This document shows positions 26,046-37,399 of a stretch of DNA of 39,759 nt, piece after piece. Source of the DNA: a virus. Numbering within the stretch: the stretch's first letter is position 1; each line of letters starts with the position of its first letter. The stretch spans positions 1 through 39,759 of the IMG/VR virus record IMGVR_UViG_3300027749_000229. The stretch is one strand, 5' to 3'. A program made the position numbers and the translations under genes. The notes beneath the pieces were generated by a model that saw only the letters and a list, made by a program, of their open reading frames with translations, ran no database searches and was not told the DNA's origin.

Positions 26046-26120
26046 TGGTGCCGGATGTTAGAATCGAACTAACGACCTCCCGCTTACAAGGCGGGAGCAC
26101 TACCACTATGCTAATCCGGC
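26046..26120 (-). tRNA. tRNA-Thr(TGT)
   Basis: Acceptor GCCGGAT/ATCCGGC, anticodon stem CCCGC/GCGGG with loop CTTGTAA, T-loop TTCGATT, encoded CCA. Complete cloverleaf. Confidence 0.95.
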
Positions 26121-26121
26121 G

Positions 26122-26397: not shown

Positions 26398-26425
26398 AGT
26401 TGTTTATTGGGCTGTTTAAGTATAT

Positions 26426-26454
26426 ATTATACCTGTTTAAGCATTACAGTGCAA
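26426..26454 (-). promoter_or_regulatory. sigma70-type promoter
   Basis: TTGCAC, 17-bp spacer, TATAAT on the - strand; start near 26419, 22-nt leader without a clear ribosome site. Confidence 0.8.
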
Positions 26455-26465
26455 CTGCAAATTTT

Positions 26466-26717
26466 TTATTCTTTGGGAAAAAGCCCACTATGTAACGAAC
26501 TTCTAAATCTATCGCTCATAGAGGGGATTATACAACTAAGAAATACTAAAGGAGCTAATATAATTGACATTATAAAAAACACTATATATATTAGTTTTTC
26601 TGCGTCAATCTTACCCATTTCTTCTTTTTCTGTATTCATTACAGGAACTAGTAGTTCCCATACTGCACATACTGCTGTTGTTAAACTGAATAGTAAATAC
26701 CAGTCAATAAAACTCAT
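26466..26717 (-). CDS. membrane protein with two spans (83 aa)
   Basis: Protein of 83 aa with hydrophobic segments at about 5-27 (WYLLFSLTTAVCAVWELLV) and 43-66 (LIYIVFFIMSIILAPLVFL), separated by a charged loop with EKEEMGK. No family recognised. Overlaps the 130-aa gene upstream as ATGA (26714-26717). Confidence 0.6.
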   Translation of the reverse strand: MSFIDWYLLFSLTTAVCAVWELLVPVMNTEKEEMGKIDAEKLIYIVFFIMSIILAPLVFLSCIIPSMSDRFRSSLHSGLFPKE

Positions 26718-27106
26718 GCAAGCGAGCCACTACTTAGGCGAGCACCAATGGAGAAGAAGTTTTTGTCTGCAATCTGGATTTTACTTTTTTGTTGCTCTGG
26801 TCTAGATGCTGATTTCTGAATAGCTAAGGATGCTGTATCTTTATTTGAGCTTAAAATATCTCGATCAAACCTACCTGTAAATAGTTTAACTATTTTAGCC
26901 ATTCTAATCGTAGTGGCACTCCATTCACGTACTACAGGAGTTTTACGTCTGTAATGAATATTAGAGAAGGCTTTCTTTACTTGCTCATTGTTAGGCTGTA
27001 GTTTAAGTTGACGTTCTAGCTTCTTCCTGCGATTAGATTCCCAACGCTTTGAAGTTTTATATGATGCAAAATGACTTTCTGCTGATTTACCACGTTTAAT
27101 TGCCAC
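26714..27106 (-). CDS. basic hypothetical protein (130 aa), GTG start
   Basis: Unrecognised, strongly basic protein (SKRWESNRRKKLERQLKL near 19-36) that could bind nucleic acid. The start is a GTG at 27106 with AAGGA 8-9 nt upstream. It is followed by the membrane gene with an ATGA overlap. It lies just downstream of tRNA-Met and tRNA-Leu. Confidence 0.58.
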   Translation of the reverse strand: MAIKRGKSAESHFASYKTSKRWESNRRKKLERQLKLQPNNEQVKKAFSNIHYRRKTPVVREWSATTIRMAKIVKLFTGRFDRDILSSNKDTASLAIQKSASRPEQQKSKIQIADKNFFSIGARLSSGSLA

Positions 27107-27136
27107 TTAGATTTTCCTTATTAAGATTACAAAATT

Positions 27137-27211
27137 TGGTTCCTGCCCCGGGAGTCGAACCCAGACTGTACGAATTATGAGTTCGCGGCACTACCATTAT
27201 GCTAGACAGGA
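27137..27211 (-). tRNA. tRNA-Met(CAT) or tRNA-Ile2
   Basis: Acceptor TCCTGTC/GGCAGGA, anticodon arm GCGAA-CTCATAA-TTCGT, T-loop TTCGACT, A73 and encoded CCA. First pair T1-A72 is normal. CAT could be elongator Met or lysidine-modified Ile; not decidable by eye. Confidence 0.9.
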
Positions 27212-27216
27212 GATTT

Positions 27217-27299
27217 TGGTACGGGTGACTGGAGTCGAACCAGCACGCATAAAGCGGGAGATTTTAAGTCTCCTGTGTCTACCATTCCACCACACCCGC
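27217..27299 (-). tRNA. tRNA-Leu(TAA)
   Basis: Acceptor GCGGGTG/CACCCGT (G1-T72 as in E. coli tRNA-Leu UAA), anticodon arm GGAGA-CTTAAAA-TCTCC, a true long variable arm (CGC..GCG), encoded CCA. Confidence 0.95.
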
Positions 27300-27304
27300 A
27301 TTAA

Positions 27305-27736
27305 TTATATCGCGTGCCACATAGCTGTAAATGCTTTTTTAACTGCCATGTTAATATCTTCCTGACCATAAAATTCTAACAAGGGCAACTCAATTACTTT
27401 TTGTGAGAAGAATTTTTCTAGGGCCATTTGAGTACCGATTTTACGGCTAAAAGTATCTTCTGGGCTACAAACAGCCACGGCTACTTCTACCATACGGCCA
27501 TACTTATATTGATTAGACTTTTTAAAGGCAACTGTCATACCGCCTTTACGCCACTCGCCTTCTGCACTTTTAATATGTACAATACCAACACCACAAAGTT
27601 TAGCTTTAAGCAACATCTCTTTACGAAGATTATCCTCAGCTAATTTAATATGGTTAATAACATCCTGTACATTAGTGCCATCGTCACGAGCATTTTTGAC
27701 TGTAATCATTGGAAAGGGAAACATAGGGTTTTTCAT
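27305..27736 (-). CDS. hypothetical protein (143 aa)
   Basis: Unrecognised protein of mixed fold with a helical N-terminal third (DVINHIKLAEDNLRKEMLLK) and a beta centre (GVGIVHIKSAEGEWRKGGMTV). It has its own promoter at 27761 and an 18-nt leader. It ends 5 nt before tRNA-Leu, so it is likely co-transcribed with tRNA-Leu and tRNA-Met. Confidence 0.62.
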   Translation of the reverse strand: MKNPMFPFPMITVKNARDDGTNVQDVINHIKLAEDNLRKEMLLKAKLCGVGIVHIKSAEGEWRKGGMTVAFKKSNQYKYGRMVEVAVAVCSPEDTFSRKIGTQMALEKFFSQKVIELPLLEFYGQEDINMAVKKAFTAMWHAI

Positions 27737-27760
27737 AATATAATGTGTTTGTAAGATATA

Positions 27761-27789
27761 ATTATATCAAAATTTGAATAGTATTTCAA
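27761..27789 (-). promoter_or_regulatory. sigma70-type promoter
   Basis: TTGAAA, 17-bp spacer, TATAAT on the - strand; start near 27754. Drives the 143-aa gene and the following tRNAs. Confidence 0.8.
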
Positions 27790-27805
27790 GTATATAATTT
27801 TTAAA

Positions 27806-27840
27806 CTAAAAAGAGGACTAAAGTTGTCTTTAGTCCTCTT
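27806..27840 (-). terminator. intrinsic terminator after hsp20
   Basis: Perfect 13-bp stem AAGAGGACTAAAG/CTTTAGTCCTCTT with a TTGT loop and five U on the - strand. Confidence 0.9.
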
Positions 27841-27853
27841 ATTAAGATTACGA

Positions 27854-28276
27854 TTATAGAATATCTATTGTACGTACTTTTTTGGATTCTGGAACAATAC
27901 GTTTAATTAATACTTGAAGTATTCCATCTTCCAAAGTGGCTGACTTAATCACCATATTTTCTGCAATAGTAAACTGATGATTAAAGTTTCTAGCACTAAG
28001 TGCATGGTGAAGATACTGCGTTTTTGTATCCTCTTTCTCTTTAGAACCTTTTACTGATAGTTTATTATTGTCAATTTCTACTTTAATTTCCGGTTTCTTG
28101 AAACCAGCTACAGCCACTTCAATGATATAATTATCTTCATCAGATTTGATTACGTTGTACGGTGGATAATTTGTAGTTTGTACATATTCTAAGTTATTGA
28201 ATAGTTGGTCAAAACCAATTAAAGCACGATTGAGGTTGGATCCAAAGTTTACTTGACCCACGGTTAGTTCTGTCAT
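27854..28276 (-). CDS. Hsp20 / alpha-crystallin small heat-shock protein
   Basis: From the ATG at 28276 (AAGGAG upstream) the protein is 140 aa: N-term with ALIGFDQLFNNLE as in IbpA, then the alpha-crystallin domain YIIEVAVAGFKKPEIKVEID, LSVKGSKE, and the C-terminal tail with HHALSARNFNHQFTIAENM. It is a holdase chaperone that binds unfolded proteins; phage versions are common and may help virion assembly. The frame is open further upstream to an ATG at 28411 (beginning MDAHNTVTVEEGDRYPLR), giving a possible 185-aa form; the strong ribosome site favours the short one. Confidence 0.9.
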   Translation of the reverse strand: MTELTVGQVNFGSNLNRALIGFDQLFNNLEYVQTTNYPPYNVIKSDEDNYIIEVAVAGFKKPEIKVEIDNNKLSVKGSKEKEDTKTQYLHHALSARNFNHQFTIAENMVIKSATLEDGILQVLIKRIVPESKKVRTIDIL

Positions 28277-28426
28277 ATTTTCTCCTTTTATAAGCAAGAA
28301 CTTTTGGGCAACATGCCCAGGTGCAATCTCATAATGAGCATTGCAAAAATTTGGCGGTCTCAAGGGGTAACGATCCCCTTCTTCAACAGTGACAGTGTTG
28401 TGTGCGTCCATGAACACTTTAAGACC

Positions 28427-28502
28427 TGGAATAGGCGACAGGACTCGAACCTGCATTATGAGGATTTGCAATCCACTGCCTCGCCGTTCAGCGCACGCCT
28501 AT
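28427..28502 (-). tRNA. tRNA-Cys(GCA)
   Basis: Acceptor ATAGGCG/CGCCTAT, anticodon loop TTGCAAA with one T.T mismatch in the stem, T-arm GCAGG/CCTGT, T73 and encoded CCA. Confidence 0.92.
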
Positions 28503-28509
28503 ATATATC

Positions 28510-28585
28510 TGGTGCAACCTCTAGGAATCGAACCTAGTTCACTGGTTCTTCAGACCAGCGCTATGACCACATCAGCTAAAGTTGC
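28510..28585 (-). tRNA. tRNA-Phe(GAA)
   Basis: Acceptor GCAACTT/AGGTTGC, anticodon arm CTGGT-CTGAAGA-ACCAG, T-loop TTCGATT, A73, CCA. Confidence 0.95.
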
Positions 28586-28587
28586 GT

Positions 28588-28662
28588 TGGTACATCCTCA
28601 CGGTTTCGAACCGCGGACCCTCTCCGTGTAAAAGAGACGCTCTACCCCTGAGCTAAGGATGC
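28588..28662 (-). tRNA. tRNA-Val(TAC)
   Basis: Acceptor GCATCCT/AGGATGT, anticodon arm TCTCT-TTTACAC-GGAGA, T-loop TTCGAAA, A73, CCA. Confidence 0.94.
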
Positions 28663-28663
28663 A

Positions 28664-28834
28664 TTAAATAAATCTTTTGAAGAGAACTGCGTCAAATTTG
28701 GCCTGTTCAATAAGCCAACGATCATATTCATCTTTGGGTCTACCACAATTCTTTAAGTAAACTCGGGCAGCTTCATATTGTTGGGCGGCCCAAGCATAGA
28801 ACTGGTCGCCGTGAAATTCTTTTTTACTAAGCAT
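28664..28834 (-). CDS. 56-aa hypothetical protein inside the tRNA cluster
   Basis: A 56-aa frame (begins MLSKKEFHGDQFYAWAAQQY) with protein-like composition, helical, ending 1 nt before tRNA-Val and starting 13 nt after tRNA-Gly. No ribosome site is obvious, so translation may follow tRNA processing. No family recognised. Confidence 0.6.
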   Translation of the reverse strand: MLSKKEFHGDQFYAWAAQQYEAARVYLKNCGRPKDEYDRWLIEQAKFDAVLFKRFI

Positions 28835-28846
28835 AGTATTTTAGAC

Positions 28847-28920
28847 TGGAGCGGGGTAAGGGAATCGAACCCTTGACCGAAGATTGGAAATCTGCTGTTT
28901 TACCATTAAACTAACTCCGC
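28847..28920 (-). tRNA. tRNA-Gly(TCC)
   Basis: Acceptor GCGGAGT/ACCCCGC, anticodon loop TTTCCAA with one C.T mismatch in the stem, T-loop TTCGATT, T73, CCA. Confidence 0.92.
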
Positions 28921-28926
28921 ATTAAT

Positions 28927-29001
28927 TGGTCGATCCTGAGAGAATCGAACTCCCACTCCAACGTTCGTAGCGTTGTGTAATATCCATTTTACTAAAGACC
29001 G
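28927..29001 (-). tRNA. tRNA-Arg(ACG)
   Basis: Acceptor CGGTCTT/AGGATCG, anticodon arm CAACG-CTACGAA-CGTTG, T-loop TTCGATT, A73, CCA. A34 would need host TadA to become inosine. Confidence 0.94.
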
Positions 29002-29002
29002 A

Positions 29003-29097
29003 AAGTGTTTAGGGGTGACCACTGGGAATCGAACCCAGACTAAGAGAATCACAATCTCTGTTGCTAACCGTTACAACATGGCCACGCCTAAACACTT
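29003..29097. repeat. 11-bp inverted repeat extending the tRNA-His acceptor stem
   Basis: AAGTGTTTAGG (29003-29013) and CCTAAACACTT (29087-29097) flank tRNA-His directly. In the precursor the acceptor helix would run 7 bp, one C.C mismatch, then 11 bp. Confidence 0.85.
29014..29085 (-). tRNA. tRNA-His(GTG), no encoded G-1 or CCA
   Basis: Acceptor GTGGCCA/TGGTCAC, anticodon arm AGAGA-TTGTGAT-TCTCT, T-loop TTCGATT, C73. The base at position -1 is C instead of the G-1 expected in bacteria, and CCT follows C73 instead of CCA, so the 3' end must be built after transcription. Confidence 0.85.
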
Positions 29098-29100
29098 AGG

Positions 29101-29174
29101 TGGCAGAGGGACTAGGAATCGAACCTAGGATAGCGGAATCAAAATCCGCGGTTATACCGTTTAACTATCCCCCA
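29101..29174 (-). tRNA. tRNA-Gln(TTG)
   Basis: Acceptor TGGGGGA/TCCCTCT with an open 1-72 pair (weak pair is typical for tRNA-Gln), anticodon arm GCGGA-TTTTGAT-TCCGC, T-stem CTAGG/CCTAG, G73, CCA. Confidence 0.92.
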
Positions 29175-29485
29175 GTATTTAATTTGTTAAAGTAGTTCCA
29201 CCCATATTATCGGAACCATTCACCTTATTATACAAGGCCGGCAAGGTCTCGGTACGTTACTTGGGATTCATCCAGTTGATACGCCCCTGTATACCTCCAC
29301 CGTAAACGGCGATAAGTCGGGAATCGAACCCGCAACTTTCTACTGATTAGTACCTTCGAAGAATACTAATCAGCGTGATTTCTCTTGCTAACACTTTAAC
29401 AAAACTTGGTGTGTGGAAGTGGGTTCGCTCACTCTTTCACTGAAATACATCAGCACCATCACTAATCTGGCTCTCACACATAACT
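29175..29485 (-). ncRNA. structured non-coding region with an orphan T-arm
   Basis: There is no gene in these 311 bases, between tRNA-Met and tRNA-Gln. On the - strand it holds a T-arm-like hairpin CGGG-TTCGATT-CCCG (29318-29332) without a matching 5' acceptor or anticodon arm, a 10-bp hairpin (CTGATTAGTA/TACTAATCAG, near 29341-29371), a 7-bp hairpin TTGTTAA/TTAGCAA and a GTTCC/GGAAC stem near 29202-29225. It could be a tRNA relic, a tRNA split by an insert, or a distinct structured RNA. Confidence 0.4.
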
Positions 29486-29560
29486 TGGTGGTAATGAGTG
29501 GACTCGAACCACTAGCATTCTCCGTATGAAGGAGGTGGACTACCATTGTCCTACATTACC
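29486..29560 (-). tRNA. tRNA-Met(CAT) or tRNA-Ile2
   Basis: Perfect acceptor GGTAATG/CATTACC, anticodon loop TTCATAC, T-stem AGTGG/CCACT, A73, CCA. Identity of CAT (Met or lysidine-Ile) not decidable by eye. Confidence 0.9.
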
Positions 29561-29639
29561 ATATAGAAACACACTGCTTCTGTCTCTGAGGACTTCTGAT
29601 GGACTAGGTCACAGCCTAGGACAGTGTATTTTTATATGG
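29559..29639 (-). repeat. long hairpin spacer joining tRNA-Lys and tRNA-Met
   Basis: CCATATAGAAACACACTG at 29559-29576 pairs with the segment ending at 29639, 17 of 18 positions matching. The arms include the CCA of tRNA-Lys and the first GG of tRNA-Met. An inner hairpin CTAGG/CCTAG lies in the loop. Confidence 0.75.
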
Positions 29640-29711
29640 TAGGGGCACAGGGAATCGAACCCTGATTTACTGGTTAAAAGCCAGTTACTTTAGCCGCTAA
29701 GTTATACCCCC
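29637..29711 (-). tRNA. tRNA-Lys(TTT)
   Basis: Acceptor GGGGGTA/TGCCCCT, anticodon arm ACTGG-CTTTTAA-CCAGT, T-stem CAGGG/CCCTG, A73, CCA. Confidence 0.95.
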
Positions 29712-29762
29712 GGCAGTTTGTCACTCTTGTCACTTGTCATGACAGCTCTCCTTATTATTAAT

Positions 29763-30044
29763 TTACCAAGGCACGTCGCCAAAATATATAGGGCCATAAC
29801 CATGCTCATCTACTTCTTGAACTTCACGAGGGTCATACCCTACTTCTATAGAATCAGCTGAAAACTTATTGGTTAGTGCATCCATTACACTAGCATCAAA
29901 CTTGATACCTTGTGTTTGCATATAACGAAGGTAGTCGTCATCCATAGCAACTATGGAGTCTACACGACAACCACGATACTTACCAAACTGGATAAAGTCT
30001 AGTAAGCCTAATGATTTTTTAATTTCTGCAAACGACTTAGCCAT
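29763..30044 (-). CDS. ExoX-like C-terminal domain / DUF3820-type protein
   Basis: From the ATG at 30044 (right after the upstream TAG) the protein is 93 aa. The segment LDFIQFGKYRGCRVDSIVAM followed by DDDYLRYMQTQGIKF fits the FGKYKG...DYLRWL pattern of the exonuclease X C-terminal / DUF3820 group, usually a small accessory domain of phage exonucleases. The rest is acidic. The longer frame to 30131 overlaps the upstream gene and is not needed. Confidence 0.65.
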   Translation of the reverse strand: MAKSFAEIKKSLGLLDFIQFGKYRGCRVDSIVAMDDDYLRYMQTQGIKFDASVMDALTNKFSADSIEVGYDPREVQEVDEHGYGPIYFGDVPW

Positions 30045-30045
30045 A

Positions 30046-30273
30046 CTAACGTCGCATACTTGCTGCATCAATAGCCTCTTGTTGACTAAAGATAGGTTGT
30101 AGGCAGGACTTATGAATGATTGAAATACCAATCATTTGGTCGCCTGTATACTTAGGTGTTTCTTTTAGGGTACAGTTACCCCCAGGAGTATACAAGCTCG
30201 GAATATCCGTGCGAGTTACTCTAGGTGTAGACATTTGCGGCGAGAGAGATTGGATATTAAATTTCTTTTTCAT
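30046..30273 (-). CDS. hypothetical protein (75 aa), leaderless
   Basis: Unrecognised protein starting MKKKFNIQSLSPQM, with TPGGNCTLKETPKYTGDQMIG in the centre. The promoter at 30280 puts the transcription start exactly on its ATG. It is followed by the ExoX-like gene (TAG then ATG with one base between). Confidence 0.6.
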   Translation of the reverse strand: MKKKFNIQSLSPQMSTPRVTRTDIPSLYTPGGNCTLKETPKYTGDQMIGISIIHKSCLQPIFSQQEAIDAASMRR

Positions 30274-30279
30274 ACTGAT

Positions 30280-30308
30280 ATTATAAAGAATTTTAACTCA
30301 CAGTTCAA
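30280..30308 (-). promoter_or_regulatory. sigma70-type promoter, leaderless
   Basis: TTGAAC, 17-bp spacer, TATAAT on the - strand, 6 nt before the ATG at 30273, so +1 is the A of the start codon. Confidence 0.82.
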
Positions 30309-30316
30309 ATCTAAAT

Positions 30317-30883
30317 TTATGGGTTTGCTTTAAAGAAAGCCTCTGCAAATCCTAAAGGAGTCATTGAGCGTAATTCTTTTGTTCTCTCCGATTTACCACC
30401 TAGTTTCATTATCCAAGAATTAGGATCAGGAATTACCTCCTGTTTTACTAAACTTTTATTGAAATTACCCCATAACCCTGTTTTCTTAGTATAGGCATCA
30501 CCATAATGCCAAGGCTGAAAATACCAGGGATCTCCTAGTTTGGGTCTAAGTTTACTTAGTCTACCTACAGGATTTTCCAGCACCCAAAATTTAGGGTCAC
30601 ACCAAGAAATAATTTCTAATGTTTTATCTACTAGGGCTAGACTACTATCAGTACGTCCGTCTATGTCTTTAGCTTTCCAGTACTGTGCTCCTGAGCCTGC
30701 AAAATCTGTACAAGGAGGAGCAGCTAATATACCATAGACATTATCAGGTATGTCCTCGGGTTGAAGTTCTAAGATATCTATACCTAGTTTAACGTCAACT
30801 TGATACACATCATACCCTGCCCGTTTATAAGGGCTAGGCCAATTACCTGAGTAATCAAATAGTGATAATATTGTTTTTTTCAT
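30317..30883 (-). CDS. C5 cytosine methyltransferase-like protein
   Basis: Protein of 188 aa, about half the length of typical C5 methylases. It has a SAM-binding start (ILSLFDYSGNWPSPYKRAGY then VYQVDV, 5-32), motif IV AAPPCTDFAGSG (54-65, catalytic Cys58) and a motif VI equivalent VLENPVGRL (101-109). No target recognition domain is evident, so it may be a minimal phage methylase or act on nucleotides. Its ATG lies only 5 nt after the CCA of tRNA-Ser with no ribosome site, so the mRNA may begin at the tRNA processing cut. Confidence 0.72.
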   Translation of the reverse strand: MKKTILSLFDYSGNWPSPYKRAGYDVYQVDVKLGIDILELQPEDIPDNVYGILAAPPCTDFAGSGAQYWKAKDIDGRTDSSLALVDKTLEIISWCDPKFWVLENPVGRLSKLRPKLGDPWYFQPWHYGDAYTKKTGLWGNFNKSLVKQEVIPDPNSWIMKLGGKSERTKELRSMTPLGFAEAFFKANP

Positions 30884-30888
30884 AATAT

Positions 30889-30980
30889 TGGCGGAAGACA
30901 GAGGAGTCGAACCCCATCCCTGTTAAGAGAACCTGGTTTTCAAGGCCAGTCGCAGGACCAACCCCGCTGCATTATCTTCC
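30889..30980 (-). tRNA. tRNA-Ser(TGA)
   Basis: Acceptor GGAAGAT/GTCTTCC, anticodon loop CTTGAAA, long variable arm (CTCT..AGGG), T-loop TTCGACT, Ser-type G73, CCA. Confidence 0.93.
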
Positions 30981-31072
30981 ATATATAAATATACTACTCT
31001 TACGACACCTTCTTTTCAGAACTCCAGTAGTTAAACCTGACTCAGCGGGTTTAGTAGTATATTTATATATGG
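30979..31072 (-). repeat. 20-bp perfect hairpin spacer joining tRNA-Gly and tRNA-Ser
   Basis: Arms 30979-30998 and 31053-31072 are perfect inverted copies starting CCATATATAAATATAC. They include the CCA of tRNA-Gly and the first GG of tRNA-Ser. The 54-nt loop holds AAACC/GGTTT and a TTCT-GAAA-AGAA tetraloop hairpin on the - strand. Confidence 0.85.
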
Positions 31073-31144
31073 AGCGGGCAGCGAGAATCGAACTCGCAAC
31101 TTGTCCTTGGCAAGGATATGTGTTACCACTAGCACCATGCCCGC
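31070..31144 (-). tRNA. tRNA-Gly(GCC)
   Basis: Acceptor GCGGGCA/TGCCCGC, anticodon loop TTGCCAA, T-stem GCGAG/CTCGC, T73, CCA. Confidence 0.94.
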
Positions 31145-31151
31145 TCATCTT

Positions 31152-31385
31152 TTATTCTAGGGGACTTAGTCGTCCCATATCACCTTCGTGTGTAATTTTA
31201 ATATTATTAACTGTTGGAGTCAATAACTCAAAACTGCCTGGTGGAATATCATCCATATCAGTACCTGTAGGACTAATATCCTCTACACCCATATCAGCAT
31301 CTAAGGAGGGGGCATCTGCTCCGTAGCTTACGGATGTAGGTATCTTGGCATTTGCCATTGCACCTGGAGTAGATTTTAATTTCAT
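31152..31385 (-). CDS. hypothetical protein (77 aa)
   Basis: Starts at ATG 31385 (MKLKSTPGAMANAK) with AAAGGA about 8 nt upstream; a longer frame would run into tRNA-fMet. Asp/Pro/Gly-rich and probably unstructured (GVEDISPTGTDMDDIPPGSF). It lies between tRNA-fMet and tRNA-Gly. No family recognised. Confidence 0.6.
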   Translation of the reverse strand: MKLKSTPGAMANAKIPTSVSYGADAPSLDADMGVEDISPTGTDMDDIPPGSFELLTPTVNNIKITHEGDMGRLSPLE

Positions 31386-31403
31386 ACAATTTTCCTTTCG
31401 TAT

Positions 31404-31479
31404 TGGATGCAGAGGTTGGATTCGAACCAACGATTTCAGGCTTATGAGACCAGACGGATGACCACTTCCATACTCTGCG
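31404..31479 (-). tRNA. initiator-type tRNA-fMet(CAT)
   Basis: Acceptor CGCAGAG/CTCTGCA has a C1.A72 mismatch, the hallmark of bacterial initiator tRNA. Anticodon loop CTCATAA, two GC pairs beside the loop, T-stem GTTGG/CCAAC, T73, CCA. Discriminator T is unusual for fMet. Confidence 0.75.
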
Positions 31480-31537
31480 GTATTTGAGATAAGTTTATTC
31501 TGTTACGAGGAAAACTTATCAAAACCCTAAGCAGTGT

Positions 31538-31570
31538 TTAGGCTGCTAATGCGAACTGTGAGTCGTTTGC
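31538..31570 (-). other. tmRNA tag reading frame ANDSQFALAA
   Basis: Ten codons from resume codon GCA (31568-31570) to TAA. The ending ALAA is the ClpXP/ClpAP degron of bacterial trans-translation tags. Confidence 0.9.
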
Positions 31571-31656
31571 GTTTACTTGTTTTGCTTGATTAACGGTCAT
31601 CGCCTACCGAGTTGTCCATTTTCCTACTCTTTGCCCTGTCGAAACTATGCAGGCCC

Positions 31657-31714
31657 ATCAGAAGTATATTCTGTTATATTTCACCTCTCCGCGTGTGAGG
31701 TCGAATATACTTCT
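31657..31714 (-). repeat. hairpin spacer (ITS) of the permuted tmRNA
   Basis: AGAAGTATATTC (31660-31671) and GAATATACTTCT (31703-31714) are perfect 12-bp inverted copies between the two tmRNA pieces, stacking on the acceptor stem. It must be removed to free the CCA end. Confidence 0.88.
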
Positions 31715-31885
31715 GGTGGACCTGGGGGGATTCGCACCCCCGTCCAAGACACTTTTCTGTCTACTTCATACAACTATAAAATAAAAAACACACTACCTAT
31801 GCTGGGTGCTCCCAGTTACCCGCGGAATGACACAGTCCGGAACGTCTCCGCATATATTTATTAAGTGGCAAGTAGTGTATTTAAA

Positions 31886-32305
31886 TTAAAACTTAACTTT
31901 AATTCCAACAGTAGCCGAGTTACCATTTTGAGCACTCACGCGGTCCTGTCCCCAGAACTTCTGTACGCCAGCAACTACGTCAACGTTTTTATTGACCGCA
32001 GCAGTTGCTGTTACCTGAGCTGCTAGGCCATAACCACTATCATTTTTAGCAAGAGTACTTTGATATACTCCGCTTCCGCCTGCTGCTAGTTGTAGTGGTC
32101 CGACTTTAGCAATATCAAAAGATTTACCTACTGAGAAGCGGTCATAAACACGATCAACGTGTGAGGCTCCAAGGGTAACGCCTTTGACCTGTGTACTAAT
32201 GGCATATCCATCACGTCCGCTATCGGTTAAGTAGGAGGCTGTAATTTCTCCGGCATTAACAACGCCAGCAAAAGAGATAACGGCAATTGAAATAAATTTT
32301 TTCAT
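31886..32305 (-). CDS. secreted outer-membrane-barrel-like protein
   Basis: From ATG 32305 (AGGA 8 nt upstream) the protein is 139 aa. Residues 1-18 are a signal peptide (MKKFISIAVISFAGVVNA). The mature 121 aa alternate in beta-strand fashion (ITASYLTD, YAISTQVKGVTLGASH, LAAQVTATAAVNKNVDVVAG) and end VGIKVKF, a C-terminal Phe as in outer membrane proteins. An 8-strand barrel like phage lambda Lom or OmpX-type proteins is plausible, with a role in changing the host surface or blocking superinfection. It lies between tRNA-Trp and the tmRNA. Confidence 0.65.
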   Translation of the reverse strand: MKKFISIAVISFAGVVNAGEITASYLTDSGRDGYAISTQVKGVTLGASHVDRVYDRFSVGKSFDIAKVGPLQLAAGGSGVYQSTLAKNDSGYGLAAQVTATAAVNKNVDVVAGVQKFWGQDRVSAQNGNSATVGIKVKF

Positions 32306-32325
32306 AAAATATCCTGTTAAAAAGT

Positions 32326-32400
32326 TGGCATCCCCCCAAGGACTCGAACCCTGACCTAACAGATTTGGAATCTGTGATGCTGCCATTACACTAGAGAGAC
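32326..32400 (-). tRNA. tRNA-Trp(CCA)
   Basis: Acceptor GTCTCTC/GGGGGAT with several G-T pairs, anticodon arm ACAGA-TTCCAAA-TCTGT, T-stem CAGGG/CCTTG, G73, CCA. Confidence 0.9.
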
Positions 32401-32414
32401 ACTTAAAATTAGCT

Positions 32415-32603
32415 TTATGAGCGTGCTGGTACTGTACCCATTGCTGCAATCATATCCTCTGTTGTAGTACACGAGGGGTCTGTAGCCATTTGTTGGGCTG
32501 TTACAACCATCTCAGGTTGATTGTCTGCTTCTATCTGCACGCCGATCTGTTCAACCGCTGGAGTAGGGCTGTAATCGCCCCACATTGAATTTTGGTATTT
32601 CAT
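32415..32603 (-). CDS. hypothetical acidic protein (62 aa)
   Basis: Unrecognised 62-aa protein with AAGGA before the ATG. Gln/Thr/Pro-rich, probably unstructured (EADNQPEMVVTAQQMATD). Sits between tRNA-Ile and tRNA-Trp. Confidence 0.55.
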   Translation of the reverse strand: MKYQNSMWGDYSPTPAVEQIGVQIEADNQPEMVVTAQQMATDPSCTTTEDMIAAMGTVPARS

Positions 32604-32627
32604 ATTATATCCTTCTAATGATAATTA

Positions 32628-32702
32628 TGGTAGCCATGGACAATTCCGAGATGTCGACCTAACGCTTATCAAGCGTTTGCTCTTCCTCTGAGCTACACGG
32701 CT
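32628..32702 (-). tRNA. tRNA-Ile(GAT) with aberrant T-arm
   Basis: Acceptor AGCCGTG/CATGGCT, D-arm normal, anticodon arm AACGC-TTGATAA-GCGTT, A73, CCA. The T-arm GACAT-CTCGGAA-TTGTC has a T.T mismatch and lacks the T54 and A58 pair, so its function is less certain. Confidence 0.82.
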
Positions 32703-32705
32703 AAG

Positions 32706-32792
32706 TGGCGGAAGATATAGGAATCGAACCTATCGGCCTATTTCTAGACGAAGGCTTAGCAAGCCTCTGTTGCACCTTGCAACACATCTTCC
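32706..32792 (-). tRNA. tRNA-Ser(GCT)
   Basis: Acceptor GGAAGAT/ATCTTCC, anticodon arm GAGGC-TTGCTAA-GCCTT, long variable arm, T-loop TTCGATT, G73, CCA. Confidence 0.94.
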
Positions 32793-32894
32793 TTATTTTT
32801 TGCGCGCCGATCTTTTAGCCATTGCATTTAGGCTTCGGGGCTTAGGCGGCTTCTTCCCCTTTAAAATCTGACTGGTTCTACGAGGACTGGGCAT
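32793..32894 (-). CDS. 33-aa basic peptide
   Basis: A 33-codon frame (begins MPSPRRTSQILKGKKPPKPR) starting one base after the stop of the basic Pro-rich gene and ending exactly at tRNA-Ser. Very basic, with 13 Lys/Arg. Evidence is position and composition only. Confidence 0.5.
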   Translation of the reverse strand: MPSPRRTSQILKGKKPPKPRSLNAMAKRSARKK

Positions 32895-32895
32895 A

Positions 32896-33117
32896 CTAAG
32901 CCTTAGGCATCGGAGGTTTAGGTTTAGGAGTCTTCATTGGTTTTGAAGGTTGAGGCTTAGGCGGTGGACGGTTATACGTTCCACCACCCGCCTCGACGGG
33001 ACTTACTGGACTAATCATTGAACTTCCTTGTACTGGAGGCATAGCCGGAACGTGTGGACCTTCTGGCTGAATGTCGATAGCCCCCGTGGGTTTACGTTTT
33101 GGTTTAGGTTTCGCCAT
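32896..33117 (-). CDS. Pro/Lys-rich hypothetical protein (73 aa)
   Basis: Unrecognised, likely disordered, with basic Pro-rich ends (MAKPKPKRKPTG and KPMKTPKPKPPMPKA). Its ATG overlaps the upstream stop (TAATG). Could be a virion or nucleic-acid-associated peptide; no proof. Confidence 0.58.
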   Translation of the reverse strand: MAKPKPKRKPTGAIDIQPEGPHVPAMPPVQGSSMISPVSPVEAGGGTYNRPPPKPQPSKPMKTPKPKPPMPKA

Positions 33118-33314
33118 TATGCCATCCTATCTACATTTTGTCCTGGACGATTCATTCGACGATTCATTTCAACTCTTGCTTGCTCATTGTCTATAAGATC
33201 TAACTTAGCACGTTGTTCTTCTATTCGAAGTTCTTCGTGCCGCTTGTCTAACTTTTTAATTTCCCACTGGCGGTACACTTCTTCCTTTTGAAGAGAAACT
33301 CTGTTTACGTTCAT
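33117..33314 (-). CDS. charged helical protein (65 aa)
   Basis: Unrecognised 65-aa protein, one long charged helix (KKLDKRHEELRIEEQRAKLD), probably a coiled coil. AAAGGA precedes the ATG and its TAA overlaps the next start. Part of a four-gene mini-operon behind the promoter at 33805. Confidence 0.6.
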   Translation of the reverse strand: MNVNRVSLQKEEVYRQWEIKKLDKRHEELRIEEQRAKLDLIDNEQARVEMNRRMNRPGQNVDRMA

Positions 33315-33317
33315 ATG

Positions 33318-33782
33318 TTATCCTTTATATTTTTCTACCATTTCCTGAATGGCTTGTTCCATAAACTCATTAATAGTAATGTCTAGTTTATGTGCAGCTT
33401 TTGCGTATAAGAGGAAGTCTTCGTCTTTAATATCAATAGGAACAACTATTCGTGAATCATAAGGCTTATTAAAGAAAATAGCTTCAGCTTTTTCTAAAAT
33501 ATCTTCTTCTGCTTCTAGCTCAATTAGGTAGTCGCGATAGTTGCCTAAACCTTTAATGTCTGAAGTTTGCCACACATAACTTTTACCAGCAGCATCGTCT
33601 TTGGCTATGATTTCTAGGACTTCTTGCGATACTATATCATATACGCATATTAGTTTATTAAATTCAAAGCCATAGACTTCAAGACTAATAGCAGTTTTGC
33701 CATATACGTCTTGTTGATGGACAACCTCAAGGTGTCCAGTTTCATATTCGGTAATGTTTAAAAAGTCGTTTAGTTTAATCAT
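33318..33782 (-). CDS. hypothetical protein with RHH-like C-terminus (154 aa)
   Basis: Protein of 154 aa. The first 100 residues are mixed beta and helix with no known motif. The C-terminal 40 aa (VVPIDIKDEDFLLYAKAAHK then LDITINEFMEQAIQEMVEKY) look like a ribbon-helix-helix DNA-binding domain, where a short strand is followed by two helices. A regulator or partition-type protein is possible. Confidence 0.58.
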   Translation of the reverse strand: MIKLNDFLNITEYETGHLEVVHQQDVYGKTAISLEVYGFEFNKLICVYDIVSQEVLEIIAKDDAAGKSYVWQTSDIKGLGNYRDYLIELEAEEDILEKAEAIFFNKPYDSRIVVPIDIKDEDFLLYAKAAHKLDITINEFMEQAIQEMVEKYKG

Positions 33783-33804
33783 AAGTGTTCCTAGTTAAAG
33801 GATT

Positions 33805-33833
33805 ATTTTAATTGATTTTTAAGGAAAATTCAA
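33805..33833 (-). promoter_or_regulatory. probable sigma70-type promoter (weaker -10)
   Basis: TTGAAT, 17-bp spacer, TAAAAT on the - strand, upstream of the 154-aa gene. Confidence 0.55.
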
Positions 33834-33883
33834 GTACAAATTCCAGGACTTGCACCTGGACTAGCCTGTTTAGGCCTATTTTA

Positions 33884-33959
33884 TGGCTCCCCAGCGTGGG
33901 ATCGAACCACGGACAACTTGATTAACAGTCAAGTGCAACTACCGCTGTGCTACTAGGGA
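33884..33959 (-). tRNA. tRNA-Asn(GTT)
   Basis: Acceptor TCCCTAG/CTGGGGA, anticodon arm CTTGA-CTGTTAA-TCAAG, T-stem CGTGG/CCACG, G73, CCA. Confidence 0.95.
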
Positions 33960-33960
33960 A

Positions 33961-34158
33961 TTATTTTAATTGCTCTAATGCACCAGGAATTAAACTACGT
34001 TGTAGTACACTCATAGATTCTGATAGATTTCTAATATGAGCGTGTGCCCGATGCATTTGAAAGATTGGATTCAGGCTAACATATTTACCAATCTTAGGCA
34101 TTTCATCCACAGTTGGCTTCTGATAAACTACTTTACGGTCTTTAATTACTAGGGGCAT
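33961..34158 (-). CDS. hypothetical protein (65 aa)
   Basis: Unrecognised 65-aa protein (MPLVIKDRKVVYQKPTVDEM start). Its ATG follows the stop of the 47-aa gene after one base and its stop lies 1 nt before tRNA-Asn, so it is co-transcribed with that tRNA. Confidence 0.6.
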   Translation of the reverse strand: MPLVIKDRKVVYQKPTVDEMPKIGKYVSLNPIFQMHRAHAHIRNLSESMSVLQRSLIPGALEQLK

Positions 34159-34159
34159 A

Positions 34160-34303
34160 TTACTTAAGTTTAAATATAAGATTGTCGTACTCTTTTTGCA
34201 ATCGTTCTACATCATAAACCGATTGAGGATTATGACGCTCAATGAAATCTTGCATTGGATTTTTAGGCTCAAAGAATTGTTTTAAGCACTTAAATAACTT
34301 CAT
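34160..34303 (-). CDS. 47-aa hypothetical protein
   Basis: A 47-codon frame starting in ATGA overlap with the stop of the 74-aa gene (34300-34303). Composition is protein-like and helical (MQDFIERHNPQS, DVERLQKEYDNLIF). Unknown function. Confidence 0.6.
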   Translation of the reverse strand: MKLFKCLKQFFEPKNPMQDFIERHNPQSVYDVERLQKEYDNLIFKLK

Positions 34304-34524
34304 TTTGTTTGAACAAAACTATAAAATTCTGTTGCCTTTTTAATTACATCTTCAGATGTAAAGTATGTAGGCATTTTAACTAAGGCTTCAGTAGCAGCAG
34401 CAGTTCCTGCTTGGAACATAGCCTTGTTATATTCTGTTGCAAACTTTACATTTGCTGTAAACTGTTTTTCTAGGTGATCTGCTGCTAGTTTAAGCAGGTC
34501 TGCACGAATTTCAAACGGTGTCAT
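34300..34524 (-). CDS. helical hypothetical protein (74 aa)
   Basis: Unrecognised, all-helical protein (LLKLAADHLEKQFTANVKFA). Resembles its neighbour at 34511 in length and style; the two overlap by 14 nt. Possibly phasin-like as a pair, by composition only. Confidence 0.58.
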   Translation of the reverse strand: MTPFEIRADLLKLAADHLEKQFTANVKFATEYNKAMFQAGTAAATEALVKMPTYFTSEDVIKKATEFYSFVQTK

Positions 34525-34738
34525 TTTTGGTCGCCTTTGGAAATGCTTTGTTAGTAACAGCGTCGGCGGAATACTTTAGCATATCTACTGTATTTTGTGC
34601 AAGCATTTTTGCAAACTGAGTTTGTGCGTCAATAAATTTATTTGCAGCCTTGTTCAGTTTAGGGTCAGTAAAGACCTGATTGGTTAAAGCTCTTTTTGTT
34701 GATTGAAAAGAGTCAATGTAAAAATCTAGTGAAAACAT
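34511..34738 (-). CDS. phasin-like helical protein (75 aa)
   Basis: Starts at ATG 34738 with AAGGA upstream; a longer frame would enter tRNA-Ala. The segment KFIDAQTQFAKMLAQNTVDM then LKYSADA is like the phasin family, which coats polyhydroxyalkanoate granules or acts as a coiled assembly factor. The similarity is weak and from memory, so the function stays open. Confidence 0.5.
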   Translation of the reverse strand: MFSLDFYIDSFQSTKRALTNQVFTDPKLNKAANKFIDAQTQFAKMLAQNTVDMLKYSADAVTNKAFPKATKNDTV

Positions 34739-34758
34739 ATTATGTCCTTGTGTGTGTA

Positions 34759-34834
34759 AGTGGTGGACCAACGGAGAATCGAACTCCGAATTGAAGCTTG
34801 CAAAGCTACCGTTATACCGTTTAACTATAAGCCC
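34759..34834 (-). tRNA. tRNA-Ala(TGC)
   Basis: Acceptor GGGCTTA/TTGGTCC (one T.T), anticodon loop TTTGCAA with one T.T in the stem, T-stem CGGAG/CTCCG, A73, CCA. Confidence 0.9.
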
Positions 34835-34845
34835 GTTTTAGCTTT

Positions 34846-35289
34846 TTATAGAGAAGCTACGCTCTTTAAAATACTGCGAATCATCCACTGATGTTTCTGA
34901 TGCGCGTCAATTCTTTCAGCAATAAAATTAGCAATTCCTTGCTGTCTTTCCGCAGTAGCTACATCAAACGTATCAGTTAAAAACTTTAACATTGTTGCAT
35001 TATCATTGAACAATTCTTGAAACATTCCCATAGGGGGTTGTTGCATAGTTTGATCTTGAATAAAAGTTAACTCTTGAAAACGCTTTAAACTTGCTGGTGT
35101 ATAACTATCTAGGGCACGAATATATTCGGCAACTTGATCAATTGTACCATAAACATCATTATAATAATTATCTAGGAAAGCATGATATTGAGGAAAATTT
35201 TCCCCTTCAATGTTCCAATGAAAATTAGCAGCTTTAATGTAAAGGCTAAAGGTTGACCCTATAAGGGTTTTCATATTATCTACTAACAT
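34846..35289 (-). CDS. dps: Dps-like ferritin (DNA starvation protection protein)
   Basis: Protein of 147 aa, four-helix ferritin-like fold of the Dps family. All five ferroxidase-site residues are in place with standard spacing: His24 (FHWNIEG), His36, Asp40, Asp51 and Glu55. Dps oxidises and stores iron using peroxide and can coat DNA. AAGGA precedes the ATG. With the SOD homologue (2178) and glutaredoxin (25084) it points to defence against oxidative stress during infection. Confidence 0.9.
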   Translation of the reverse strand: MLVDNMKTLIGSTFSLYIKAANFHWNIEGENFPQYHAFLDNYYNDVYGTIDQVAEYIRALDSYTPASLKRFQELTFIQDQTMQQPPMGMFQELFNDNATMLKFLTDTFDVATAERQQGIANFIAERIDAHQKHQWMIRSILKSVASL

Positions 35290-35307
35290 AGTAATTCCTT
35301 TTTTTAT

Positions 35308-35384
35308 TGGTCCGTATAGAAGGATTCAAACCTTCGACCCTCTCGTCCCAAACGAGATGCGCTATCAGGCTGCGCTATACACGG
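35308..35384 (-). tRNA. tRNA-Pro(TGG)
   Basis: Acceptor CCGTGTA/TATACGG, anticodon arm TCTCG-TTTGGGA-CGAGA, T-stem GAAGG/CCTTC, A73, CCA. Confidence 0.95.
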
Positions 35385-35389
35385 GTAAG

Positions 35390-35465
35390 TGGTGCCCTAG
35401 GGGAGACTCGAACTCCCAGAACCTGGTTTCTAAGACCAGTACGTATACCATTCCGTCACCGGGGC
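35390..35465 (-). tRNA. tRNA-Leu(TAG) with short variable loop
   Basis: Acceptor GCCCCGG/CTAGGGC, Leu-like D-loop GGAATGGTATACG, anticodon arm CTGGT-CTTAGAA-ACCAG, T-stem GGGAG/CTCCC, A73, CCA. The variable region is only GTTCT, not the long arm expected of tRNA-Leu. Confidence 0.88.
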
Positions 35466-35472
35466 GATTATT

Positions 35473-35505
35473 TTTGAAACTACTACTAGTAGTAATACTT
35501 TCAAA
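35473..35505. repeat. inverted repeat between tRNA-Tyr and tRNA-Leu
   Basis: TTTGAAA/TTTCAAA and TACTACT/AGTAGTA form a nearly continuous hairpin; no T-run follows, so it may be a processing signal instead of a terminator. Confidence 0.6.
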
Positions 35506-35510
35506 GATAA

Positions 35511-35599
35511 TGGTGGAGCCGGTAGGACTCGAACCTACAGCGTTTCTTATGTGGGGGATTTACAGTCCCTTGCCTTCAACCAATTCGGCACACGTCTCC
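35511..35599 (-). tRNA. tRNA-Tyr(GTA)
   Basis: Acceptor GGAGACG/CGGCTCC, anticodon arm GGGA-CTGTAAA-TCCC, long variable arm, T-stem GTAGG/CCTAC, A73, CCA. Confidence 0.94.
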
Positions 35600-35606
35600 A
35601 TATAAA

Positions 35607-35696
35607 TCTAAGATGTGCGATGCGCCCTATATATTAAAATCTTCGCAATTAATATTGCCAAGGGGCTAGGTGGTACGCGGTGCACATCTTAGATAA
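35607..35696 (-). ncRNA. hairpin-bounded RNA element upstream of tRNA-Tyr
   Basis: A 13-bp perfect stem ATCTAAGATGTGC / GCACATCTTAGAT encloses about 64 nt with a GCAAT-ATTA-ATTGC hairpin and GCCC/GGGC. No gene is inside. Similar in build to the other tRNA-spacer hairpins of this window. Confidence 0.6.
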
Positions 35697-35700
35697 CTAA

Positions 35701-35901
35701 TTATCCTTTACGACCCGTTGCAACTTTAAATTCCTTAATGGCATCTGCATCTAAAGATGCAAGAACACGGAATTTATCTTTACCAACTTCATCGTATGTT
35801 TTTTCTGCTAACTGCCTTTGTCTAGCGACTACTTCGTCACTAAGTACCTCATAACGGCTAACAAAGGCATCAATTAAAAATTCTCTTGAATATCCTGCCA
35901 T
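35701..35901 (-). CDS. hypothetical protein (66 aa)
   Basis: Unrecognised helical protein (FVSRYEVLSDEVVARQRQLA). CGGAG sits 7 nt before the ATG, and the promoter at 35922 gives a 14-nt leader. The transcript continues into the hairpin element and tRNA-Tyr, Leu and Pro. Confidence 0.62.
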   Translation of the reverse strand: MAGYSREFLIDAFVSRYEVLSDEVVARQRQLAEKTYDEVGKDKFRVLASLDADAIKEFKVATGRKG

Positions 35902-35921
35902 AGTAGTCTCCGAAAAGATTT

Positions 35922-35950
35922 ATTATAACTGATTTTAACTAGAGATTCAA
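35922..35950 (-). promoter_or_regulatory. sigma70-type promoter
   Basis: TTGAAT, 17-bp spacer, TATAAT on the - strand; start near 35915. Confidence 0.82.
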
Positions 35951-35960
35951 GTTAATAATT

Positions 35961-36035
35961 TGGTCCGGCATGCAGGAATCGAACCCACATCTAGGGAGTA
36001 GAAATCCCCTGTATTATCCATTATACTAATGCCAG
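35961..36035 (-). tRNA. tRNA-Arg(TCT)
   Basis: Acceptor CTGGCAT/ATGCCGG, anticodon arm GGGGA-TTTCTAC-TCCCT, T-stem GTGGG/CCTGC, A73, CCA. Its 5' ten bases overlap the end of the 89-aa gene upstream. Confidence 0.92.
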
Positions 36036-36295
36036 TCATTCATATCACCGTCCCAATGCCTGTTATCGCGAATTTGAAAATCAACATTGTAACCTAATAG
36101 GCCTAAGTGTATTCGTAATCCGCCATGATCTGCGCGAGGATAGAATTGAAAGTCTAGGGCAAATAGTATGCCTAAGTAAAAACTGTGTTCAAGTTCTAGT
36201 GTTTTATTTTTAGTAAGCTGTTTATTATAGCAACCCAAATTGTGGTAGTCGTGCTCTCCAACTGGATTATCTAATCTTGCGTATACGTGTATCAT
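36026..36295 (-). CDS. hypothetical protein (89 aa)
   Basis: Unrecognised protein rich in His, Tyr and aromatic residues (MIHVYARLDNPVGEHDYHNL; FYPRADHGGLRIHLGLLGY). AGGGG lies 9 nt before the ATG. Its last three codons and the TAG stop lie inside the tRNA-Arg acceptor arm. Follows a 31-aa membrane peptide. Confidence 0.6.
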   Translation of the reverse strand: MIHVYARLDNPVGEHDYHNLGCYNKQLTKNKTLELEHSFYLGILFALDFQFYPRADHGGLRIHLGLLGYNVDFQIRDNRHWDGDMNDWH

Positions 36296-36296
36296 A

Positions 36297-36392
36297 CTAA
36301 TAACCCCTATAATGAAACCATATAGCTATTACTATAGCTGTAAGTATTTCAAATAAATAAATACCCACTATAACTTGTAGTATATTATACAT
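36297..36392 (-). CDS. 31-aa membrane peptide
   Basis: A 31-codon frame, one hydrophobic span (ILQVIVGIYLFEILTAIVIA). It starts inside the end of the UvdE gene and ends one base before the next ATG. AGTAGG precedes it. Tight packing supports it; function unknown. Confidence 0.55.
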   Translation of the reverse strand: MYNILQVIVGIYLFEILTAIVIAIWFHYRGY

Positions 36393-37392
36393 GACCTACT
36401 TCTTTGGCAAACTGTTCAGAGGCAGTATTTTTCTGCTTAGACTCGCACATAATGTCGGCGTGGTCTAGGAAAGTGGTAGCCCACTGATTTACATCTTGAT
36501 TCCAGTAGAACTCTGAGTGTGCTCGGAGTTTAGCTGCTGTAAATCCCATTGATTTAAGCTCTCGGAGGTCAGGCCGTGTTCGTCCACAATGATCTGGGAG
36601 TACGTCCTCCCTACTAACTGAATAGTGGATAACTGGTCTGACACCGCGCCAAGATTCTTGAATTCGTTTAACACGACTATCCTCTGGGTTAATATACTCT
36701 CCTGAATGAATCCAGTGGTGATGAATGTCTAGGACTAAGGCACAGTGGTCTACTAGTTCTAATGAGGCATCTAAACCCCAGGTAAACTCTGCGTTCTCAA
36801 TAGTTAAACAATTACGGGCCTCGGGTGTTAGTCGTTGTAGGGCTGAGATAATACCTTTGGGGCCTTGTTTACCGCCAATGTGTACATTACATTTAAAGTC
36901 TTGAAACTTTTTACCATAGCCCATGTACCTGATAAGGTCGGCATGGTACTCGAACTCGGTAATTGAATTTTCAACTACACCTGGATTATCTGATGCTAAG
37001 ACACAGAACTGACCTGGATGAAAGCTAACACGTACATCTGCTGCACGGAACTTATCACCGATTTTTAGTAGATTCCGTTCTAAGAAGTCTACTACATCTG
37101 ATTGAAAGTAAAACCACATCCAGTCATCGTGAGAGTATGCAGTTAGTAAGTCGCTGCTTAGGCGAAACATTCGCAAACCTGGTGGTTGCTGTGCTACCCA
37201 ATCTGCTTGTGCACTAAGGGCTGCTATATTAGTTTGCATTAAGGTCCACAGTCGCTCTGCGGCTGCTTGTTTAGTTTGGCTATTTAGCCATGTAATTGTA
37301 GTACCTTTGGTCTTACAACTGGCTAAATCTGTAGATTCTTGGCTTTGAATTTTACACGCAAAGCCAACGCGTTTTTGATTTTGATTAAACAT
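36385..37392 (-). CDS. uvdE: UV damage endonuclease UvdE-like
   Basis: Read from ATG 37392 the protein is 335 aa; a GTG at 37398 would lie before the predicted transcription start. Family motifs are clear: RVGFACKI near the start, RMFRLSSDLL, VRVSFHPGQFCVLASD, CNVHIGGKQGPKG, LTIENAEFTWG and VLDIHHHWIHSGEY, with the His/Glu/Asp metal ligands of the TIM-barrel. It nicks DNA 5' of UV photoproducts and other lesions, helping phages survive sunlight. The mRNA should be leaderless (+1 one base before ATG). Confidence 0.92.
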   Translation of the reverse strand: MFNQNQKRVGFACKIQSQESTDLASCKTKGTTITWLNSQTKQAAAERLWTLMQTNIAALSAQADWVAQQPPGLRMFRLSSDLLTAYSHDDWMWFYFQSDVVDFLERNLLKIGDKFRAADVRVSFHPGQFCVLASDNPGVVENSITEFEYHADLIRYMGYGKKFQDFKCNVHIGGKQGPKGIISALQRLTPEARNCLTIENAEFTWGLDASLELVDHCALVLDIHHHWIHSGEYINPEDSRVKRIQESWRGVRPVIHYSVSREDVLPDHCGRTRPDLRELKSMGFTAAKLRAHSEFYWNQDVNQWATTFLDHADIMCESKQKNTASEQFAKEVGHV

Positions 37393-37399
37393 AGCCACT

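Follow-up and report, generated by a model that had tools for sequence, protein, structure and literature searches.

The window, by which we mean the whole stretch of DNA analyzed here, is 39,759 bases long and constitutes a complete virus record. Among the 20 window proteins scanned, 18 had PHROGs matches, including a DNA polymerase, a primase, helicases, a split NAD-dependent ligase, SbcC/SbcD-like proteins, a D5-like regulator and a ribonucleotide reductase. Its DNA polymerase shares 49% identity with the enzyme of Vibrio phage pVp-1, and ligase A is 44% identical to the ligases of T5-type phages. Judged by these T5-type replication genes, the split ligase, D5, SbcCD and a tRNA-rich region, the window belongs to a T5-like phage (Demerecviridae). 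Moreover, window positions 27284-39759 are found at 100% identity in a 123,962-base IMG/VR contig (L082), which we thus take as the same phage, about the size of T5 (121,750 bases). The window also holds, on the minus strand, genes for a ferritin-like protein (34846-35289) and a UvdE-type UV endonuclease (36385-37398) and, on the plus strand at 2751-3818, a gene that weakly matches a bacterial solute-binding protein; in an Rfam scan of the window, no riboswitch match reached its threshold.

A permuted tmRNA gene lies among 25 tRNA genes (Table 1). ARAGORN called 23 of these, and Rfam added two, which read as Ile(GAT) and Tyr(GTA); by our reading of the sequence, the 25 tRNAs cover all 20 amino acids. 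The gene read as Ile(GAT), at 32628-32702 (minus strand), has an irregular T-arm and scores 48.6 bits with Rfam, with no ARAGORN call. All parts of the tmRNA locus are on the minus strand, which an earlier reading of the locus, made from the sequence only, had left out.

Table 1. Parts of the permuted tmRNA gene and its tRNA surroundings, in window coordinates
Feature	Position	Strand	Basis
Whole permuted tmRNA gene (beta_tmRNA model extent)	31485..31828	minus	RF01850, 116.9 bits
T-arm GGGGG / TGCGAAT / CCCCC, G at tRNA position 55 (31735)	31725..31741	minus	covariance model, sequence
Acceptor 3' strand CAGGTCC (31724-31718), discriminator A (31717), encoded CCA (31716-31714)	31714..31724	minus	sequence
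Intervening spacer, exactly 57 nt	31657..31713	minus	sequence; ends pair over 11 bp
Acceptor 5' strand GGGCCTG, with G3 of G3:U70	31650..31656	minus	sequence
D-region CATAGTTTCGAC, A18 (31646) and G19 (31645), holds TTTCGAC	31638..31649	minus	numbering by tRNA analogy
Tag frame GCA AAC GAC TCA CAG TTC GCA TTA GCA GCC TAA = ANDSQFALAA-stop	31538..31570	minus	ARAGORN, sequence
Terminal hairpin, betaproteobacterial-type loop	31491..31517	minus	RF01850 alignment, sequence
tRNA-Met(CAT), 11 nt downstream of the tmRNA terminal hairpin	31404..31479	minus	ARAGORN, sequence
tRNA genes around the tmRNA, n=25	26046..39307	minus	ARAGORN 23 + Rfam 2

The locus had been proposed to encode a circularly permuted tmRNA with its own tag, and the covariance models that this reading called for bear it out, the gene being intact. 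RF04321 (tmRNA_permuted) matches 31775-31538 on the minus strand with 136.8 bits (E 6.5e-27, model positions 1-213 of 213), far over its gathering score of 47, and RF01850 (beta_tmRNA, gathering score 84) matches 31828-31485 over the whole model (1-331). Independently, ARAGORN called a permuted tmRNA with the tag ANDSQFALAA-stop, for which it prints "Tag not identified"; we take this to mean that the tag is absent from the program's own list. ARAGORN also reports tags of 27-31 residues, such as ANVNKTVTVSGKNLKFSARSAKEALAV, in the phage permuted tmRNAs L017, L076, L097, L098, L119, L189, L193 and L220. The two acceptor strands, the CCA, the spacer length, the TTTCGAC segment and the tag with its stop had been identified correctly to the base, and the acceptor stem closes across the permutation break as described, with 7/7 pairs, G3:U70 among them. 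G3:U70 is the alanine identity pair, and of 137 distinct viral permuted sequences other than the window, 133 have it. The acceptor piece is predicted to end at 31714 and the coding piece to begin at 31656. Three features had been missed, namely the base A18 (31646) as partner of the T-loop G, the 11-bp pairing of the spacer ends, and the adjoining tRNA-Met (31479), where an RNase P cut would free the 3′ end of the tmRNA coding piece.

In the window, pairing of the spacer ends leaves only TGAT before the acceptor 5′ strand, and the predicted fold of the region has a free energy of -20.8 kcal/mol (z -5.58), with none of 200 shuffles equally stable. We found that such a helix is common. Among viral sequences that share the G at position 55 of the window (G55), the spacer ends pair over at least 7 bp in 85 of 90 cases, against 12.4 expected from mononucleotide shuffles; this count covers spacers of at least 30 nt, that is, 90 of the 102 sequences, window included. 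The same holds for T55 phages (23/32 against 3.6 expected), for cellular alpha-type genes (25/45 against 4.7) and for cellular beta-type genes (5/6 against 1.8). The letters of the stem differ between phages, with the pairing kept.

Scored with the clade-specific models, the window gene reaches 116.9 bits for beta, 58.5 for alpha (RF01849) and 39.6 for cyano. The alpha score exceeds its threshold of 50 but is half the beta score, and the cyano score is below its cut-off. Because the beta score is the best, we class the gene as beta-type and describe it, on its sequence, as a beta-type permuted tmRNA with an elbow otherwise usual in alpha-type genes. Under stricter search filters, beta-type permuted genes passed the cut-off in 15 of 399 genomes of the order sampled, which we take to be Burkholderiales. 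We considered the tmRNA type as a guide to the host and rejected it, as a 159,514-base IMG/VR record likened to Stenotrophomonas phage IME-SM1 (L130) is also of beta type (beta 95.6 vs alpha 39.8 bits).

In tRNA, position 55 touches G18 of the D-loop. The window gene has G at position 55 and A at position 18. The T-loop G had been noted as odd; the base is real, and it is not peculiar to this gene, being the rule in alpha-type bacterial permuted tmRNAs and part of an exact T-arm shared by at least 119 IMG/VR stretches, one of which is the window's own phage. This recurrence, together with a covarying partner base, led us to reject a sequencing fault or gene decay as its origin. A general oddity of T-loops in the RNAs of this phage was likewise rejected, since G55 occurs in 0 of the 23 ARAGORN tRNAs of the window (22 in register, tRNA-His read by eye).

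To test for an association between positions 18 and 55, we counted both bases in several sets. In a viral scan unselected for position 55 (120 stretches, 116 tallied, 72 parsed as permuted; identical sequences unmerged), A18 accompanies G55 in 30 of 33 sequences, the other 3 having G18, and G18 accompanies T55 in 36 of 39, the base being otherwise in 3. After merging of identical sequences, A18 is found in 97 of 101 distinct viral permuted G55 sequences, plus the window, and G18 in 33 of 36 with T55, most G55 members of this set having been chosen by the G55 pattern. In the four G55 exceptions, TCGAC is preceded by 9-10 bases (7 in the window) and UAGG is still present, so that their register is ambiguous; several U55 sequences (e.g., L122, L182 and L217) read AGG before TCGAC and were counted as G18 by position, and the ambiguity thus cuts both ways. 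Rows L082, L001, L002 and L520 stem from the window or its phage and do not count as independent.

The same coupling is seen in bacteria, and we therefore rejected the idea that the G55 form is specific to phages, as both permuted and one-piece bacterial tmRNAs carry it. Among bacterial permuted loci, taken for the most part from genomes in the phylum and order to which a Rhodobacter genome carrying RF04321 belongs (110 of 119 parsed, 3 of them, L347-L349, from genomes picked by the G55 pattern), 109 of 110 have G55 with A18, and the remaining one, whose tag is of beta type, combines U55 and G18. With the alpha-type label given from tags and loops, A18/G55 is thus present in 109/109 parsed alpha-type loci, and in 0/15 cellular beta-type genes. 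In pattern-chosen bacterial permuted loci, A18 is absent in 2 of 6 (L244 and L279), which are probably wrong parses with six pairs. Of 38 distinct one-piece bacterial G55 genes (pattern-chosen; Elusimicrobia, Patescibacteria and others), 32 carry A18, four of the six exceptions having AG one base off and two (L252 and L345) being plain mismatches, while one-piece bacterial U55 genes have G18 in 20/20. In one-piece viral loci, A18 goes with 6 of 7 G55 and G18 with 15 of 16 U55.

Several side observations concern bacterial loci. For the Elusimicrobia-type loci L240, L242, L257, L263 and L268 and many alike, ARAGORN reports no tmRNA, and RF00023 gives 123-136 bits; the T-loop of the five named loci is TGCGAAT, as in the window. 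In L318, L324, L329, L330 and L341 (Rhodobacter, Ruegeria, Sulfitobacter and a Rhodobacteraceae MAG), the T-loop resembles that of phages, reading TGCGAAT or TGCGATT on a GGGGG stem instead of GGCGGTA, and A18 is retained. In Ruegeria spongiae, the genome that also holds L324, one contig (G026:C26) gives a pair of permuted tmRNA matches separated by about 6 kb, at 35930-36143 and 42328-42538 (L348 and L350; 145.9 and 83.7 bits), possibly the second copy of a mobile element. The G at the second T-loop position of Caulobacter tmRNA was printed in 2005, along with GG in the Reclinomonas mitochondrion, and the available part of that paper mentions no D-loop partner (PMC1168896). Our search of the tRNA literature for A18 with G55 returned nothing on point; it lay mostly outside subscription journals, where the coupling may already be in print.

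The coupling also holds on trees. Our most careful tree comprised 177 permuted tmRNAs over 266 columns, with both elbow bases masked. All trees were built without rows of fewer than seven acceptor pairs and with only 40 alpha-type rows kept, and 12 long-branch rows were also left out of the careful tree, of the constrained-test tree and of four longer searches. The careful tree requires 12 changes at position 55 and 12 at position 18. It yields seven independent pairs on supported branches, in which position 18 agrees in six, opposes in none and is the same in one (197 of 200 pairings); in the other three pairings, five agree, none oppose and two are without difference. A sign test over the pairings gives a median p of 0.031 (range 0.031-0.0625). 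In two quick trees, 7/7 pairs agree in most pairings. The four longer searches, which are unconverged, need 13-14 changes at position 55, 12-13 at position 18 and only 13-14 for the joint state, so that nearly every change at one base can be placed with a change at the other.

In the careful analysis, 38 alpha-type rows form one clade (support 99/99) apart from the phage rows. In the constrained test, a clade of phage rows apart from the cellular beta-type rows is not rejected (p-AU 0.987). The nesting in a quick tree had suggested that cellular beta-type genes descended from phage genes, an idea we dropped because constraining the phage rows to one clade gave a better tree than the unconstrained quick search. 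The topology is uncertain: the bootstrap of the careful tree is unsettled, its likelihood (-21,076) lies below the approximately -21,014 implied for the constrained tree, if the two are comparable, and no tree is shown to be the best. The coupling is what all versions agree on. It could arise via base change or via recombination moving both bases, which are 89 nt apart in the window gene.

Based on these counts, A18/G55 appears to be no defect but a second, compensated form of the elbow alongside G18/U55. We tentatively extend this to a model, which we regard as possible, in which the tmRNA elbow has two interchangeable, co-inherited forms, G18:U55 and A18:G55, between which phage permuted tmRNAs would have flipped repeatedly, the same coupling being present in alphaproteobacterial and one-piece tmRNAs. 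Pseudouridylation at position 55 would be the work of host TruB, and A18:G55 might escape this modification, or host factors or nucleases that read G18:Psi55; as the window RNA has G where TruB would act, it might bind host factors with a changed affinity. Through their number and variety, the permuted tmRNAs of phages can serve as a natural mutation experiment on the elbow pair, while the cellular clades are few and, in our samples, each nearly fixed for one form, which makes repeated switches invisible there. The coupled pair, which lay outside the claims of the sequence-only reading, is in our view the part worth pursuing.

As to function, the features of the gene argue that it probably makes a working two-piece tmRNA used during infection, most likely as a rescue RNA that is processed by the host and depends on host SmpB. 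A single precursor, probably co-transcribed with the neighboring tRNAs, would fold with its acceptor strands drawn together by the spacer hairpin. Host tRNA enzymes (RNase P, RNase Z or RNase E) would then cleave it at 31656/31657 and downstream of the CCA that ends at 31714, leaving two pieces that remain paired, an arrangement for which the spacer hairpin is indirect evidence. Recognizing G3:U70, host AlaRS would charge the CCA end, after which SmpB and EF-Tu of the host would carry the charged RNA to ribosomes stalled on broken mRNAs. Translation would resume at GCA, adding (A)ANDSQFALAA, and the tagged product would be degraded by host ClpXP-type proteases. Together with the phage tRNA set, the tmRNA might be an insurance against the loss of host RNAs in infection. 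A two-piece tmRNA is known to work in Caulobacter (PMC3985003).

Searching 25 phage records, among them the window and the 124-kb contig that represents this phage, we found SmpB (PF01668) in 0 of 25; the control search was positive in 10 of 14 genomes, and most of the 25 records are possibly fragments. With no SmpB match in the phage, the RNA would have to use the host's SmpB, AlaRS, EF-Tu and processing enzymes. The RNA had been called a private ribosome-rescue RNA; rescue is plausible beside the tRNA set, but "private" is too strong. Phage tRNAs have been discussed as protection against tRNA-cutting defences (PMC10264068). Having a tmRNA next to a set of tRNAs is in keeping with a scheme in which large lytic phages make up for translation RNAs lost or destroyed in the infected host. 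This single gene shows that a T5-like phage can hold a large translation-support kit, 25 tRNAs plus a tmRNA.

The missing SmpB match would also suit a decoy, that is, an RNA which is charged or SmpB-bound and mainly titrates SmpB, blocking host trans-translation in the manner of the TLD-only sequence of mycobacteriophage DS6A, a tmRNA fragment of the kind described as inhibiting tmRNA (PMC11915505, PMC4131195). We consider this unlikely, because a decoy needs no tag frame, whereas in the window the frame, resume site and stop are all intact. When a lenient rule is applied and the window is counted, 95 of the 102 distinct viral G55 sequences keep an open frame that finishes in the A-type manner, a pattern suggestive of selection acting on the mRNA part; the same script found no tag in 7 of the 102 and in 13 of 36 T55 sequences, some perhaps through parsing. 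It is also unlikely that the gene is host DNA of no benefit to the phage, acquired with tRNA genes or from an integration site, even though host ssrA can be a prophage integration site and ssrA fragments occur in prophages (PMC9004378). Such a passenger would hardly keep an intact RNA, a compensated elbow, paired spacer ends and a tag frame across many contigs, and the rarity of beta-type permuted genes in the sampled order makes casual pick-up there unlikely. Similarly unlikely is that the phage RNA outcompetes host tmRNA and uses the phage's own tag to mark host proteins for amino-acid recycling, since tmRNA targets stalled ribosomes and not selected proteins, and ANDSQFALAA keeps the A-N-D...A-A plan of cellular beta-type tags (14/15), with no new protease targeting visible. 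That idea was proposed for phage Melnitz (PMC9004378).

The host-dependent rescue RNA that we favor can be compared with several known systems. Escherichia phage T5 and its relatives have a related DNA polymerase, the split NAD-dependent ligase and a D5-like regulator like the window but, unlike it, gave a permuted tmRNA match in 0 of the 4 cultivated records searched, so that the gene is not general in the T5-like group. The beta_tmRNA genes (RF01850) of some Betaproteobacteria share with the window the permuted order, the full-length match, the ANDxxFALAA-type tag and the terminal hairpin, and 15 cellular examples score 104-336 bits, a range that includes the window; they have G18/U55 in 15/15, however, so the elbow is not shared. 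The elbow is that of the Caulobacter-type alpha_tmRNA (RF01849), whose T-loops are mostly GGCGGTA or GGCAGTA (97/110) and whose tags are mostly of ANDN type, unlike TGCGAAT and ANDSQFALAA in the window. Three cultivated phages picked for blastn matches, Marzo (Stenotrophomonas), X1 (Xanthomonas) and BUCT-ZZ01 (Synechococcus), have a permuted tmRNA over the RF04321 cut-off (3/3) and by ARAGORN (3/3); Marzo and X1 have U55 with G18, unlike the A18/G55 of the window, and the T-arm of BUCT-ZZ01 was unmatched by our search pattern.

Permuted tmRNAs in phages have been published already, and the gene, rightly recognized in kind by the sequence-only reading, is not the novelty or exception that it was held to be. 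The available text of one survey gives 133 unique tmRNA structures from 402 phages, 53 of them two-piece and 50 of these marine or aquatic (PMC9004378). That of another, which defines RF04321, gives 79 unique phage tmRNAs and 11,946 unique permuted sequences (PMC11915505). Phage tmRNAs were reported earlier (PMC4131195), and also occur in Bradyrhizobium phages (PMC12656738). One parallel is Melnitz, which, like other aquatic phages and like the window, encodes a permuted two-piece tmRNA; as described in the text available to us, the myophage Melnitz has a gene of alphaproteobacterial type and also a glutamine riboswitch, whereas the window is T5-like and carries a beta-type gene among tRNA genes (PMC9004378).
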